DNA of 64,000 nt from an uncultured Allomuricauda sp. (GTDB taxonomy: Bacteria; Bacteroidota; Bacteroidia; Flavobacteriales; Flavobacteriaceae). Where the stretch lies: positions 1,364,001 to 1,428,000 of the forward strand of contig NZ_CANMOO010000001.1 in NCBI RefSeq assembly GCF_947499585.1. The letters are read 5' to 3'. Of the stretch, positions 12,412-17,432 are shown in pieces. The first letter of the stretch is position 1, and each line of letters opens with the position of its first letter. The notes under the pieces were generated by a model. The model saw only the letters and a program-made list of their open reading frames with translations, made no database searches and was not told the DNA's origin. The translations under genes were made by a program, and so were the position numbers.

Positions 12412-15400
12412 TTATTTTGCGTAATTGACTCGATACCTCCAAAAACTTATGCCGCCTAAAATAAACACCCCAAGTACGGTAAACCATATGAAGTTGGGAG
12501 TTATTACTTGGTCACCGCTTGCATAACTATGCAAACCAACCAAATAAAAGTTGACTCCAAAATAGGTCATCATAATACTGGCAAAGGCTATAATACTAGC
12601 AAAGCTAAAAGACCATTTTCCTCTGAGTCCGGGTACCAAACGCATGTGTATTACAAACGCATAGATCATAATGGAAATTAAAGCCCATGTTTCCTTGGGG
12701 TCCCATCCCCAATAACGCCCCCAGCTTTCATTGGCCCATTGACCTCCTAAAAAGTTACCAATTGTAAGCATTACAAGGCCGGTGGTCAAAGCCAATTCGT
12801 TAATAACTATGAGCTCTTTTAAATTAAGTTCCATACGCTCTTTATTCTTCTTGGTGGTAAGAATAATCAGTAGCAAAGAAACAACACCTAAAATCATACC
12901 AACGGTCAGCGGTCCATAGCTGCCAACAATTACCGCTACATGAATCATTAGCCAATAGCTGTCCAGAACAGGCTGCAAATTGGCTATGGCGGGGTCTATC
13001 CAACTTTGATGGGCCACTGCGAGAAGCAAGGACGTTACAAAGGCACTTGCTGCCAGCGTCAACTCACTTTTCCTTCCCAAAGCCAAGCCTATTGCCATGG
13101 TCGCCCAAGAAACGTACAAAATACTTTCATAGGCATCACTCCACGGAGCATGGCCAGAGATATACCAGCGTAAAATAAGACCTGCAGTATGCCAAACAAA
13201 TAAGATAATCACCAATCCTTTAAGTGCGTATGCAGCTGCCTTCCAAATTTCTCTGTCTTTAAAAATTCGGAATATCAGGATAAAGAACAGCAATAAGCCA
13301 ACCATACCGTAATACTTGTACAATCGGTTGAAAATATCCAACTTGTTGTACATGATTTCAATCTCTACCTTTTTCTCATCAGGAAGCACCTCAGCACCAT
13401 GGTTTCTATGATTCTGTTTAAAAGCTTCTAGCAACATATCTGGCTGGGTATAATCTCCAGAAGCAATTGAAGTTTTAAGGGAACCCAAATAATAGGGCAT
13501 TGAATTTCTTATGAAATTGGAATACAAAGAATCTGACACTTGATATTGTCCGGAACGATATTCAATGGCCGATATCCATTTATTATTTTCATCATTCAAC
13601 AAGGGAAATATTTTAACGATCTGTCCGCTAAGGGCTATGTTTAACAAACTTAACCGTTCACCAACCTTTTTAAAATCCTTTTCAAAATTGGAAGGATTAG
13701 TGGTTGAAGTTGCCTTCTCCAAATAAGGTTGCAGCTTATAAGTCCCTTTCTCGTCAAAAAAATCTGTAGCTTTTACATACTTTGTTCCCTTTGGCACATC
13801 AATAATACTCCGAAGACTATCATTTTCTTTTTTTCCTAGTGCTATAAATTCGGTGTTGTACCAAATCCCTGGATTCATCATCATGGAAAGGAAGACTTGA
13901 TTTGCCGTAAAGCCGTCATAGGTATTCTTCCCGCTTAGTCTACGCAACAACTCTGAAGCAAATGTATGAATGGGTTTCATTCTACCTCCTTCATCTTGAA
14001 TAACAAGTGCTCCAAAACTTTCAGCATGTTGCTCGTCCACAATGGTGGTTTGAATAATGGAATCTACCAGTTCCTGTGGTGGAAGATTGGAATGTTCGTG
14101 GTTTTCAGGATCCTCATGTTGGGCCGTAGCCAAAGAAGTAAACAAGAAAAAAGCAGCTGCGGCCAAAGTTGCTTTTTTGGCTTTGATTTTTTCCAAAGAT
14201 TTTTGAAGATCACGAAAACGGGTTTTCCCAAAGAACATGATTCCCATTAGCCCCAGATAGAGTAAAAAGTAACCAATATAGGTAATCCATGTACCCCAAA
14301 AGTCATGATTAACGGATAAAACAGTTCCTTTTTCATCTGGGTGAAAGCTGGACTGAAAGAATCGATATCCTTTATGGTCCAAAACATGGTTCATAAAAAT
14401 ATCATAGTCAAATGGACGTTCATCTTCAACAGTAATCTTACTCATAAAAGAAGCATAACCCGCTTCTGTACCTGGGTATTTTTCAGCAATAAAGTCATTC
14501 AATTGAATTGAAAATGGAAGCTCATATACTTTAGACCCGTAACTGAGCGAAAAATCCATCCCGCCTACTTTTACTTTATCTGAAAAATTGGAACTTCCCT
14601 TTCCTCCCAATAATTTCTGTTCTACAGTTTCCCCATTTACAGTTATGGATACCACCAAAGCATCTTGTGTTGCCTCTGTAACTTCATTATCTGGAACTTT
14701 GACCACTCCATAACTCCCTTTAACCAAAGGTTCAGGAATTACAAACTGCATTCCGGCCATATTGTACAGGGAACGTAACTGTAATGTCTGAAGACTGTCA
14801 TTCACGACTTCTCCTCGCAATTGATCGGCCATTCGCATAAAATCTCCAGAAAAAGGGGATTTAATTTGATAACCCTCGCTGTTCGAGTAAATATTTATCG
14901 CCCCATTCGTTTCATTATTTAAAGAAAATAACACGTTATGAATACTGGCAACCTTTCCGTTTTCCAAATAGTGCTCATGGCGTTCACCATCACCTGCTTC
15001 AACAATTTTAAGGTATTCATTGCCATTTTCATCTGCAATCAATCCTTCTTCTGCCCCAGCTATAAAATCAACATAAGAAATAGTAAAGGGTTGGCCATTA
15101 AAATCTGATTTCCATGGTAAACTGGAACGCATACCTTCTGGAGTAATAATCAAATCATCTTCTAACACCCTGCGTTTTGTCTCTCCTCCAATATCACCAT
15201 CCACAAAAGCTGTTAAATAGGTTTTATCCGAATAAAATCTATTTTCGGTATTTCCCTCCCTAATGGGCATCACACCTTCATAGCTTATATATCTTGTTAC
15301 AAAAGCTCCAATTATGATCAAAACCCATGAAAGGTGCAGGGTGAGCACTGGCCATTTTTTCCAGCTGAAAAGTTTATAGCGGAACATATTCCCTACAAAA

Positions 15401-15582
15401 TTGATGACAAAAAATACCATAATGGCCTCAAACCAGGTGGCATTGTAAATGTAAATTCGAGCTGTTTCAGTACTGTACCAACTTTCAACAAAAGTTCCAA
15501 TGGCCATCGCAGTAGCGAAAACCAAAAAAAGAACAGCCATAAGTTTTGTAGAAAAAAGGGTCTTTTTAAGAATGTCTATCAT
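12412..15582 (-). CDS. Fused cytochrome c biogenesis protein ResB-CcsA (System II)
   Basis: This 1056-residue inner-membrane protein combines a ResB/CcsB-like N-terminal half (four membrane helices and a large periplasmic domain, to about residue 480) with a CcsA half. The CcsA half has the WWD haem-handling motif near residue 950-965 (NESWGRYWGWDPKETWAL). Histidines flanking the haem site appear in VWHTAGLILRW and GLHSYASGD. System II moves haem across the membrane and ligates it to apocytochrome c CxxCH motifs. Fusion of both subunits is the usual Bacteroidota arrangement. A TATTTTTG -7 box (reverse complement of 15609-15616) lies upstream of the ATG, so it is probably transcribed alone. 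Confidence 0.93.
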   Translation of the reverse strand: MIDILKKTLFSTKLMAVLFLVFATAMAIGTFVESWYSTETARIYIYNATWFEAIMVFFVINFVGNMFRYKLFSWKKWPVLTLHLSWVLIIIGAFVTRYISYEGVMPIREGNTENRFYSDKTYLTAFVDGDIGGETKRRVLEDDLIITPEGMRSSLPWKSDFNGQPFTISYVDFIAGAEEGLIADENGNEYLKIVEAGDGERHEHYLENGKVASIHNVLFSLNNETNGAINIYSNSEGYQIKSPFSGDFMRMADQLRGEVVNDSLQTLQLRSLYNMAGMQFVIPEPLVKGSYGVVKVPDNEVTEATQDALVVSITVNGETVEQKLLGGKGSSNFSDKVKVGGMDFSLSYGSKVYELPFSIQLNDFIAEKYPGTEAGYASFMSKITVEDERPFDYDIFMNHVLDHKGYRFFQSSFHPDEKGTVLSVNHDFWGTWITYIGYFLLYLGLMGIMFFGKTRFRDLQKSLEKIKAKKATLAAAAFFLFTSLATAQHEDPENHEHSNLPPQELVDSIIQTTIVDEQHAESFGALVIQDEGGRMKPIHTFASELLRRLSGKNTYDGFTANQVFLSMMMNPGIWYNTEFIALGKKENDSLRSIIDVPKGTKYVKATDFFDEKGTYKLQPYLEKATSTTNPSNFEKDFKKVGERLSLLNIALSGQIVKIFPLLNDENNKWISAIEYRSGQYQVSDSLYSNFIRNSMPYYLGSLKTSIASGDYTQPDMLLEAFKQNHRNHGAEVLPDEKKVEIEIMYNKLDIFNRLYKYYGMVGLLLFFILIFRIFKDREIWKAAAYALKGLVIILFVWHTAGLILRWYISGHAPWSDAYESILYVSWATMAIGLALGRKSELTLAASAFVTSLLLAVAHQSWIDPAIANLQPVLDSYWLMIHVAVIVGSYGPLTVGMILGVVSLLLIILTTKKNKERMELNLKELIVINELALTTGLVMLTIGNFLGGQWANESWGRYWGWDPKETWALISIMIYAFVIHMRLVPGLRGKWSFSFASIIAFASIMMTYFGVNFYLVGLHSYASGDQVITPNFIWFTVLGVFILGGISFWRYRVNYAK

Positions 15583-15756: not shown

Positions 15757-16437
15757 TTAAAGTATCTTACACATAACGGTATCTGTGATTCTATCACATT
15801 TGCTAAAGCCAAAGCCAAATACGTCCTCTTTGTTAGCCGTGAGTTCATAAAGTTTTTCTTTTAGCATGCTTTTAGCTCGATGCAGGCGTACCTTAACATT
15901 TGAAATCGAAACATCCAAACATTCAGAGATTTCCTTAATTTTCATTCCCTCAATCTCCCTTAGCATGTATACCGTACGATACTTGATATCTAAAGAGTCA
16001 ATGGCGTTTTCTAAAAATTGTTTTGCCTCGTTTCTAATAATTCTTTTTTCGGGATTCAATTGATTGCTATCAGGTATTTCCAAAATAGTATTTTGTTTTA
16101 TTTCTGATGGTCGACGGTTGAGATCAATAACTTTCTCCTTTTCTTTTAATCGGGCCAAAACTTCATTGATTCCTATTCTAATTAGCCAGGTGGTATAAGA
16201 TGAAGCATGTTTAAATTGATATAGTTTTTCGAATGCTTTTAAATATGTGTTTTGCATGATATCTTCAATTTCCGCGACATCATTTATATAACTTCTAATC
16301 ACACGAAAAAGCTTTTGGTTATTTCGTCTCAAAAGAATTTCATACAGCTCTTTTTCACCTGAGAGAATGCGCTTAATTATTTCAGATTCAGATATTTTAT
16401 GGCTGTTAAAATCGCTTATTTTAATCGGTTCCATCAT
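15757..16437 (-). CDS. ECF-family RNA polymerase sigma factor
   Basis: The 226-residue protein has sigma region 2 (about residues 40-105, with DIMQNTYLKAFEKLYQF and TTWLIRIGINEV) and region 4 (about 150-200, with YRTVYMLREIEGMKIKEI and the recognition helix SISNVKVRLHRAKSML). A C-terminal extension of about 25 residues contains two cysteines (FSKCDRITDTVMCKI), resembling tails of some redox- or metal-linked ECF groups. No anti-sigma gene is adjacent. It is divergent from a DoxX-like gene, with a nearly symmetric shared control region between them, which suggests it transcribes both itself and that operon. Its ATG lies only 10 bp after the predicted -10 element, so the mRNA would be almost leaderless. 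Confidence 0.92.
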   Translation of the reverse strand: MMEPIKISDFNSHKISESEIIKRILSGEKELYEILLRRNNQKLFRVIRSYINDVAEIEDIMQNTYLKAFEKLYQFKHASSYTTWLIRIGINEVLARLKEKEKVIDLNRRPSEIKQNTILEIPDSNQLNPEKRIIRNEAKQFLENAIDSLDIKYRTVYMLREIEGMKIKEISECLDVSISNVKVRLHRAKSMLKEKLYELTANKEDVFGFGFSKCDRITDTVMCKIL

Positions 16438-16447
16438 TTTGCTTTGT

Positions 16448-16515
16448 CTTTAGATGGTGTTTCATATAAATAGTTACAAAATTTTGTAACCTTTTTGAGC
16501 TTCTCTTATCTAAAG
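16448..16515. promoter_or_regulatory. Symmetric divergent ECF-type promoter pair
   Basis: A perfect 18-bp palindrome GTTACAAAATTTTGTAAC (16473-16490) lies midway between the sigma gene and the doxX-like gene. Each outward TGTAAC is followed by exactly 17 bp and then ATCTAAAG: 16508-16515 on the plus strand, and the complement of 16448-16455 on the minus strand. TGTAAC is a standard ECF -35 type; ATCTAAAG would be the -10. The start codons lie 14 bp and 10 bp beyond. An alternative reading is a palindromic repressor site, or degenerate sigma-A promoters (TTTTG, 20 bp, [TC]ATCTAAA). Confidence 0.7.
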
Positions 16516-16529
16516 TTAAAAATTAATAA

Positions 16530-16904
16530 ATGATGGATTCAAATGTTCAACAAGTAAGATTAATATTAAAATACACCTATGGTTTAGTTCCTATTATCGC
16601 TGGACTGGATAAGTTTACCAATCTATTGACTGACTGGAGTCATTATGTTTCCCCAGGGCTTTCTGATATAGTTCCATTAGAAGCTGGTGCATTTATGATG
16701 GTTGTTGGGGTAATAGAGATTATAGCTGGCGTTCTTGTGCTAGTAAGGCCAAAAATTGGCGCTTTAGTGGTTATGGCATGGTTAATAGCCATTGCACTTG
16801 TTTTGGTTCTTAGTGGCACTTTTATAGATGTCGCAGTCAGAGACCTTGTAATGGCTGTAGGCGCATTCTCACTAGCTAAGTTGTTAGAATCTAAACCGTT
16901 ATAA
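16530..16904 (+). CDS. DoxX-like small membrane protein
   Basis: The 124-residue protein has four hydrophobic helices (about residues 10-28, 52-72, 76-98 and 105-120) and the DoxX-type ending RDLVMAVGAFSLAKLLESK. DoxX-family proteins are small inner-membrane subunits associated with quinone-linked oxidoreduction or envelope redox stress, but for this branch the function is unknown. It starts with ATGATG, 14 bp after a predicted ECF -10 element and divergent from the sigma gene. The H-x-H lipoprotein gene follows 99 bp downstream without an intervening terminator, so the two are probably one operon. Family assignment is by topology and C-terminal motif. Confidence 0.7.
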   Translation: MMDSNVQQVRLILKYTYGLVPIIAGLDKFTNLLTDWSHYVSPGLSDIVPLEAGAFMMVVGVIEIIAGVLVLVRPKIGALVVMAWLIAIALVLVLSGTFIDVAVRDLVMAVGAFSLAKLLESKPL

Positions 16905-17003: not shown

Positions 17004-17387
17004 ATGAAAATGGACAGAAAAACTTTTATCAAAAAAACGACAGGTGCCTTGCTTGTGGTAATTCCTGCGTATTCAATTTTAAGCTGCTCTGGTGATGACA
17101 GTGCAAATGGGGATCCTAACATTAATCCAAGTTCGCGTGATTGCGCCGCGAATGGTGCCAATGCAATTTCTATTAGCAGTAATCATGGCCATACCCTTAC
17201 CGTTCCAAAAGCGGATATTGATGCTGGCGCTGAAAAAGAATATTCCATACAGGGAGGGTCAGGACACAATCATAAGGTGAAATTAACTGCTAGTAATTTT
17301 GCTTCTTTAAGAGGAAACAATCAAATTACTATCGAGTCCACTACTGGAGGGGCTCATAGACATGATGTCACCGTAGCATGTGCTTAA
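17004..17387 (+). CDS. Small lipoprotein with three H-x-H motifs (unknown function)
   Basis: The 127-residue protein begins with a Tat-like, lysine-rich signal (DRKTFIKKTTGALL) ending in lipobox ILSC, with Cys28 followed by SGDD. Acidic residues just after the lipidated Cys resemble the Bacteroidota surface-export signal. The mature part carries three spaced motifs, NHGHTLTV, GHNHKVKL and AHRHDVTV, each H-x-H leading into an alternating hydrophobic strand, plus Cys residues near the start (RDCAANG) and at the end (VACA). Six histidines in paired H-x-H suggest metal binding, for example Cu or Zn; that is inference. It follows the DoxX-like gene and is probably controlled by the adjacent ECF sigma factor. 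A strong terminator closes the operon. Confidence 0.75.
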   Translation: MKMDRKTFIKKTTGALLVVIPAYSILSCSGDDSANGDPNINPSSRDCAANGANAISISSNHGHTLTVPKADIDAGAEKEYSIQGGSGHNHKVKLTASNFASLRGNNQITIESTTGGAHRHDVTVACA

Positions 17388-17405: not shown

Positions 17406-17432
17406 AGCCGCCAAAACCTGGCGGCTTTTTTT
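17406..17432 (+). terminator. Intrinsic terminator of the DoxX/HxH operon
   Basis: AGCCGCC (17406-17412) and GGCGGCT (17420-17426) form a 7-bp GC-rich stem with a 7-nt loop followed by T7. Confidence 0.92.

Follow-up and report, generated by a model that had tools for sequence, protein, structure and literature searches.

A conserved pair of putative back-to-back ECF-type promoters between a PRK11922/ECF29-like sigma factor gene and a DoxX/MauE-like operon

The 64,000-nucleotide stretch of DNA analyzed here (the window) appears to carry two ECF-type promoters set back to back between an ECF sigma factor gene and a probable target operon, and it is very likely that the PRK11922/ECF29-like sigma factor whose gene lies to the left recognizes both. 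Based on the comparative evidence, the promoter pair is real and deeply conserved, and it probably represents a variant form of a known type, the divergent ECF promoter with autoregulation. What appears to be new is the promoter sequence in the Bacteroidota, its conserved arrangement in back-to-back pairs, and a small set of genes proposed as a redox regulon. The element would thereby provide a sequence-level promoter definition for a widespread and little-studied sigma group, a short candidate regulon whose parts recur beside proteobacterial homologues, and a natural test case for the sharing of a single polymerase docking site by autoregulation and output. The features of the region are as follows.

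15757..16437, minus strand: ECF sigma factor gene, 226 aa, NCBIfam NF008888/PRK11922 (ECF29-like), from Pfam and NCBIfam profiles
16448..16455, minus strand: -10 of the putative sigma gene promoter, ATCTAAAG, by direct reading and conservation
16473..16478, minus strand: -35 of the putative sigma gene promoter, TGTAAC, by direct reading and conservation
16473-16490, no strand: 18-bp palindrome GTTACAAAATTTTGTAAC, formed by two back-to-back TTTTGTAAC -35 regions
16485..16490, plus strand: -35 of the putative doxX-like operon promoter, TGTAAC, by direct reading
16508..16515, plus strand: -10 of the putative doxX-like operon promoter, ATCTAAAG, by direct reading and conservation
16530..16904, plus strand: DoxX/MauE-like small membrane protein, 124 aa, probable target, from a Pfam match below the cut-off and from relatives
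17004..17387, plus strand: His-rich protein, 127 aa, with a lipoprotein-like start (by reading), probable second operon gene, from its position
17406..17426, plus strand: terminator-like hairpin with a T-run, directly 3' of the His-rich gene

The divergent element and its sigma factor gene

The first-pass annotation of this DNA had described a palindrome from which TGTAAC-N17-ATCTAAAG exits on both strands, followed within 10-14 bp by two genes with a common opening, and each of these observations, coordinates included, is exact. The minus-strand spacer occupies 16456-16472. The sigma ATG lies at 16437 (minus), 10 bp from its ATCTAAAG, the doxX-like ATG lies at 16530, 14 bp from the other copy, and both genes open with ATGATGGA. 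The -35 elements had also been called overlapping, but the two hexamers are adjacent, with 6 bp (AAATTT) between them and no overlap. They are 12 bp apart centre to centre, 52 bp separate the two -10 boxes (16455 to 16508), and the whole element spans 68 bp. With the next base included, the -35 reads TGTAACC in the doxX arm and TGTAACT in the sigma arm.

The pattern is rare in its surroundings. Within the 64-kb window, the 31-bp pattern with up to two mismatches has three matches where 0.93 are expected, the exact ones being the two arms only, and the palindrome with up to three mismatches is matched once, exactly, against an expectation of 0.11. The genome-wide scan that had been suggested for TGTAAC-N17-ATCTAAAG also came out in favor of the element: over the whole 3.77-Mb genome, TGTAACN{16,18}ATCTAAAG has three matches, two of which are these arms, and none in the backwards control. 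A relaxed scan of the same genome gave 10 matches against 3 backwards, comprising the two arms, three sites in a second ECF cluster and five noise-like sites inside predicted open frames. A promoter of the housekeeping type was considered as well. TAnnTTTG is the -7 box of the Bacteroidota primary sigma factor, and no exact copy lies between the genes (16438 to 16529); both genes therefore probably depend on ECF-type initiation. Since the sigma/doxX-like intergenic region also yielded no sigma-70-type site, a sigma-A promoter reading was rejected.

The sigma protein scores 40.1 bits against Sigma70_r2 (cut-off 24) and 56.1 bits against Sigma70_r4_2 (cut-off 25.7), which identifies it as an ECF sigma factor, and it passes NF008888 with 217.6 bits (cut-off 204). 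This profile is also passed by the Sinorhizobium meliloti homologue at locus L160 (320.1 bits), by homologues from R. leguminosarum, Variovorax, Roseibium and Methylocystis, and at loci L068, L101 and L115; L119 falls below the cut-off, with 186.7 bits. A C-terminal extension carries F209-G-x3-C214-D215; C214 does not vary among 12 Bacteroidota rows, nor in an alignment of 9 rows that includes Proteobacteria. The AlphaFold model has a mean pLDDT of 68.4 that drops under 50 over residues 204-226, so that the extension is not placeable, and a PDB sequence search returned ordinary ECF sigmas with the extension outside the alignments. The neighbors of the gene are the doxX-like and His-rich genes and genes of the DUF2520 and ResB/CcsA types. 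Because no anti-sigma gene was recognized among these neighbors, the activity of the sigma factor is probably set via the conserved C-terminal CD motif or another partner.

Downstream of the sigma gene, positions 12412-15582 encode a fused ResB/CcsA-type cytochrome c biogenesis protein with ResB-like and Cytochrom_C_asm domains. This gene stays near the sigma gene in several Flagellimonas relatives.

Conservation of the arms and the origin of the symmetry

A search with the sigma protein identified 33 related loci. The closest named relatives are Flagellimonas species, by which the genome of the window is probably placed in the Flavobacteriaceae. For the comparison, 65 sigma upstream regions were pooled and 9 duplicates removed, leaving 56, of which 53 (the window included) have a recognizable centre. 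The three without a centre matching the half-site pattern are L028, which has TGCAAC, L070, which has the sigma arm only, and L087, which belongs to a different ECF (28% identity). One locus, L054, is cut by a contig end, so 52 divergent arms stand against 53 sigma arms. Near-identical Aquimarina and Gelidibacter rows were kept in the 53-locus set, and 32 of 52 loci are independent in that more than 40% of their spacer positions differ from every other kept locus.

The loci were anchored by the half-site pattern, so that counts for the -35 arise partly by construction, whereas those for the -10 and its distance do not; the -10 search used the consensus of the window itself. The distance from GTAAC to a -10-like box is exactly 17 bp in all 53 sigma arms and in 51 of the 52 divergent arms, the other having 18 bp (104 of 105 in total), and these counts are unchanged when the first best match is taken instead of breaking ties towards 17. 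The box reads ATC[T/A/C]AA in 104 arms and GTCAAA in one divergent arm. When the letters were shuffled 200 times, the best match to [A/G]TC[A/C/T]AA fell at 17 bp in a mean of 0.32 and a maximum of 2 of the 105 arms. Pairwise identity on the sigma and divergent sides, respectively, is 0.97 and 0.93 for the -35, 0.955 and 0.91 for the -10, and 0.35 and 0.37 for the distal 11 bp of the spacer. TGTAAC is present in 48/53 sigma arms and 37/52 divergent arms, and TGTATC in 14/52 divergent arms, counts that are partly by construction; among all 105 arms the two forms number 85 and 17. Orthologous sigma/doxX pairs thus keep both arms and the 17-bp spacing while their spacers mutate, which is the outcome that had been named in advance as support. 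On this ground the central proposal of the first-pass annotation, that one near-symmetric divergent ECF promoter serves both a sigma factor gene and the probable target operon of that factor, appears well founded.

The same data bear on how the symmetry arose. Dyads rich in A/T are favored in AT-rich intergenic DNA, and the palindrome could in principle be a chance or compositional artefact. This explanation is refuted by the comparative counts, with conservation alongside neutral-looking spacers in 52-53 loci and no matches in the backwards controls, and its probability is practically nil. A more substantial alternative is that a dimeric transcription factor controls both genes and uses the palindrome as its operator, in which case the ATCTAAAG boxes would be incidental or belong to another promoter type. 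A perfect 18-bp dyad centred between divergent genes is typical of operators, and the centre is 18 bp long in 44 of the 53 loci. A dimeric regulator, however, calls for a fixed half-site distance, and the distance varies between 16 and 19 bp in the 53 loci (17 bp in six, 16 in two and 19 in one) and reaches 32 bp in the distant locus L115. Moreover, half-sites also stand alone. The fetched loci contain 134 distinct motifs, of which 22 stand without a second arm back to back; TGTAAC is immediately preceded by TTT in 13 of them. Among the 22, L061 and L139 are noise-like, and in L085, L101 and L105 the gene runs off the locus. Such lone half-sites each retain a -10 at N17. Single arms lacking a palindrome are found ahead of doxX-like genes (L020, L070, L079, L080, L085, L101), cytochrome-like genes (L037, L039, L067, L108) and DUF4142 genes (L054, L055). 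In L070, L079 and L080 sigma and doxX run in the same direction and doxX has its own single arm, and in L020, where no sigma gene is adjacent to doxX, only the doxX arm is kept. The arms also drift separately: 14 of the 52 divergent arms read TGTATC (13 with ATCAAA, one with GTCAAA), while the sigma arm stays TGTAAC/ATCTAA in 10 of those 14 loci. The operator reading was rejected for its variable half-site distance and self-standing half-sites, and we regard it as very improbable. Because the distance varies, single arms stand alone and arms drift separately, the arms behave, to judge from these sequence comparisons, as two independent promoters rather than one operator, and the palindrome is best read as a by-product of two TTTTGTAAC elements set back to back.

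Conservation extends in part beyond the family. A phylum sample of 247 genomes gave 13 loci of at least 170 bits, of which three lie in the family and nine distant ones were inspected, the second locus of genome G398 being left out. Both boxes occur at 17 bp in four of the distant loci, L112, L113, L114 and L115, with centres of 20, 19, 22 and 32 bp; the divergent -10 of L114 is CTCCAA. No TGTA[A/T]C-N15-19-ATC[A/C/T]AA was found in the fetched stretch of four others (L117-L120), and in L118 the doxX gene seems to lie ahead of the sigma gene, both on one strand. The remaining distant relative, L116 (reverse complement 1425-1468), has the opposite symmetry, with -10s nearly touching (TTGGATGCATCTAA) and TGTAAC outside on each side. 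In a different variation, the DoxX-like gene of L014 keeps both arms beside a mere start-like remnant with no sigma match; the genome of L014 has a second sigma/doxX pair (L035).

The cognate sigma factor and related systems

Within the genus, the sigma factor (E<=1e-40) is present in 13 of 71 genomes. The N17 motif occurs in 13/13 genomes with the sigma and in 2/58 without it (Fisher 1.8e-12), and in the latter two it lies in apparent coding sequence (L072, L081). When the spacer was allowed to be N16-17, the genus-wide pattern search returned 23 hits, compared with 4 in the backwards control. The strict motif, scanned over 299 family genomes, was found 10 times in 6 genomes and never backwards. 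Nine of these sites are arms beside this sigma gene; the other one (L108), in a genome that likewise encodes the sigma, precedes a cytochrome-like gene. The motif therefore tracks the sigma gene, and its -10 and spacing recur in the published ECF29 promoter. Both points lend weight to the claim, made when the element was first described, that it defines the recognition sequence of this sigma factor.

It is nevertheless conceivable that both arms are ECF promoters but that a different ECF sigma encoded in this genome, which has 28 sigma-like matches, is the main reader of one arm or of both. A second ECF gene at G000:C1:352572-354147 (L091, L092, L093) is accompanied by two polyketide-cyclase-like (SRPBCC) genes, and TGTAAC-N17-ATCAAA precedes each, giving three copies within 1.6 kb, some 20-30 bp before start codons, so cross-recognition is possible. 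Furthermore, six genus genomes that lack this sigma carry TGTAAC-N16-ATCTAAAG elsewhere, in three of them before an alpha/beta-hydrolase gene; this motif is perhaps the promoter of another ECF with a 16-bp spacer. S. meliloti RpoE8, the experimentally studied ECF29 sigma factor, activated nothing when overexpressed, as far as the available part of that study goes (PMC6180224). Against this reading, the N17 form with ATCTAAAG follows this particular sigma (13/13 vs 2/58), and the motif remains with it even when the partner gene differs. We therefore consider a main role for a different sigma improbable, and favor the sigma factor encoded beside the element. At five loci in genomes without this sigma (L074, L075, L082, L083 and L088), the N16 form reads TGTAACATTTT-N16-ATCTAAAG, and an alpha/beta-hydrolase gene is next in L075, L082 and L088.

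The closest known relatives of the sigma factor are of the ECF29 type. Its matches to plasmid-borne rhizobial sigmas cover most of the protein (93-94% for the best rhizobial rows). The homologue at L160 is 31.5% identical over 94% (E 9e-31), and the homology is full-length and includes the C-terminal extension with its invariant Cys. According to the available text of PMC6180224, the S. meliloti rpoE8 (ECF29) promoter is GGGAAC/GCATCCAA with one start mapped. L160 contains two copies of GGGAAC-N17-ATCCAA, almost identical to the motifs published for the rpoE8 region, although this sequence is found in only 3 of 8 plasmid homologue loci (L160, L162, L166). The two branches have in common a -10 of the ATCCAA type at 17 bp, the window family carrying its counterpart of GCATCCAA at that distance, as well as DUF4142 and GTP cyclohydrolase I neighbors. 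The GC preceding ATCCAA in GCATCCAA is not kept in Bacteroidota arms, and the -10 of the window is ATCTAA. In contrast, the -35 is GGGAAC there and TGTAAC here, which may be due to the recognition helix, since it reads T(V/A)(R/K)(T/S)R in proteobacterial rows and NVKVRLHRA in the window. The partner genes differ too, the L160 neighbors being by reading an acylphosphatase and an amicyanin-type protein instead of doxX-like and His-rich genes. Because its -35 is TGTAAC, not GGGAAC, the sigma factor is labelled ECF29-like and not a proven ECF29 member. Within the accessible account, 126-fold overexpression of RpoE8 in S. meliloti activated no target, including a gene with a perfect motif, so that even the ECF29 promoter is not proven to be read by its own sigma; no anti-sigma is known for ECF29, and the regulation of RpoE8 is termed a mystery (PMC6180224).

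ECF16 sigma factors, as described in the portions of the literature available for Caulobacter SigF, Bradyrhizobium EcfF, S. meliloti RpoE7 and Brucella BcrS, resemble the window system in their -35, TGTAAC(C), in autoregulation together with a divergently transcribed target operon (RpoE7, bcrS/bcrX), and in a Caulobacter regulon that includes a DoxX-family gene. However, their -10 is CGAA and not ATCTAA, an anti-sigma gene accompanies the ECF16 examples but none was recognized beside the window sigma, and the Brucella -35s are 38 bp apart rather than abutting. Assignment to ECF16 was rejected on the -10. The bidirectional promoters of Warman et al. 2026 likewise use symmetry to load RNA polymerase in two orientations, one binding event excluding the other, but in the sections available their divergent starts are mostly 18 bp apart, with distances of 10 and 23 bp also frequent (PMC12825309). 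The starts in the window are predicted to lie some 77 bp apart, and its -35s are central, with 52 bp between the -10 boxes in place of an overlapping core; with this difference in geometry, a promoter of that type was rejected. A start map of Flavobacterium psychrophilum, in its available part, contains an ECF motif with a CGT -10, unlike that of the window. Among the matches listed from open-licence papers, none describes a Bacteroidota ECF linked to this promoter or to DoxX.

Predicted mechanism and candidate regulon

In the proposed mechanism, each promoter would consist of a -35, (TTT)TGTAAC(C/T), a 17-bp spacer and a -10, ATC(T/A/C)AA. The left arm would be the promoter of the sigma gene itself, resulting in positive autoregulation, and the right arm would drive the doxX-like/His-rich operon, such that the sigma factor most likely activates both from one element. 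The geometry suggests that the two -35s are usable by only one polymerase at a time; with their centres so close together relative to promoter footprints, two holoenzymes probably cannot sit there together. The mRNAs had also been expected to be nearly leaderless. Judged from the -10 boxes, this would hold mainly on the sigma side, where 8-19 nt separate the end of the -10 hexamer from the start codon in 47/52 loci; on the divergent side the distance is at most 19 nt in only 6/50 loci and 24-43 nt in 41/50. In the window itself the distances are 12 and 16 nt on the two sides.

Selection may have acted on the abutting geometry itself, so that a polymerase docking at the shared site would serve either sigma synthesis or the output of the regulon, a proposal that is tentative and rather doubtful. 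If it is true, each initiation would feed back or report, not both, which would limit the runaway autoactivation of a sigma factor without a known anti-sigma. The back-to-back centre occurs with various partners (doxX-like, folE, an exported protein with no Pfam match and an FNR-like oxidoreductase), which is consistent with such selection. The nearly touching -10s of L116 would exclude double occupancy too and are counted as support. In the available text on E. coli bidirectional promoters, competition appeared in those tested only once activity was raised (PMC12825309), and exclusion at the window element may thus matter mainly at full sigma activity.

The probable target protein is called DoxX/MauE-like only, because it scores 16.3 bits against DoxX (PF07681), below the cut-off of 23.6. 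Among 13 aligned DoxX-like members, at E<=0.1, MauE matches 13 and DoxX 11, with a best DoxX E value of 2.6e-5. Across 149 family genomes, the protein found a match at E<=0.001 in 24, and in 19 of these the E value was 1e-13 or lower. The His-rich protein has no match in Pfam or NCBIfam. It has 72 homologues, of which all those with an organism name are from Flavobacteriaceae, and its gene follows doxX in Flagellimonas relatives. The hairpin after it is weak evidence on its own, being one in 2 kb where 1.2 are expected by chance; the argument for it is its position right after the gene.

In 45 of the 53 loci, the strand opposite the sigma gene carries a doxX-like match. In the eight without such a partner, the place is taken by folE (L055), an exported protein without a Pfam match (L056), an FNR-like oxidoreductase identified by Pfam (L085) or genes resembling the latter (L071, L079, L080); in L069 no doxX was found, and L054 ends with its contig. 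In L115 a single divergent row combines doxX-like, folE-like and FNR-like genes (names by reading). DUF4142 stands beside the proteobacterial sigma in L162, L163 and L164 and beside the Bacteroidota sigma in L055 and L117 (L054 is near-identical to L055). GTP cyclohydrolase I adjoins the sigma gene in Roseibium and occurs in L053, L055 and L101 (by Pfam) and in L115 (by reading). Overall, a small candidate regulon can be proposed that consists of the DoxX/MauE-like protein, FolE, an FNR-like oxidoreductase, DUF4142 and a cytochrome-like protein. Its inferred functions point to an envelope redox or metal stress response, because a redox role would suit the FolE, FNR-like and cytochrome-like proteins and ECF16 sigmas, which have a similar -35, are linked to hypochlorite, peroxide or metals in the accessible reports. 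RpoE7 of S. meliloti, an ECF16 sigma, is described in the available excerpt as giving no response to peroxide, cadmium or chromate.

The cytochrome-like genes at L037:4723, L039:4719, L067:575 and L108:1501 have their own TGTAACC-N17-ATC arm, downstream of sigma or elsewhere. The L108 gene has a weak match to CCP_MauG, below the cut-off, and the L037 gene has none. L040:4723 also retains a TGTAACC-N17-ATC arm, with the next gene found 352 nt on.
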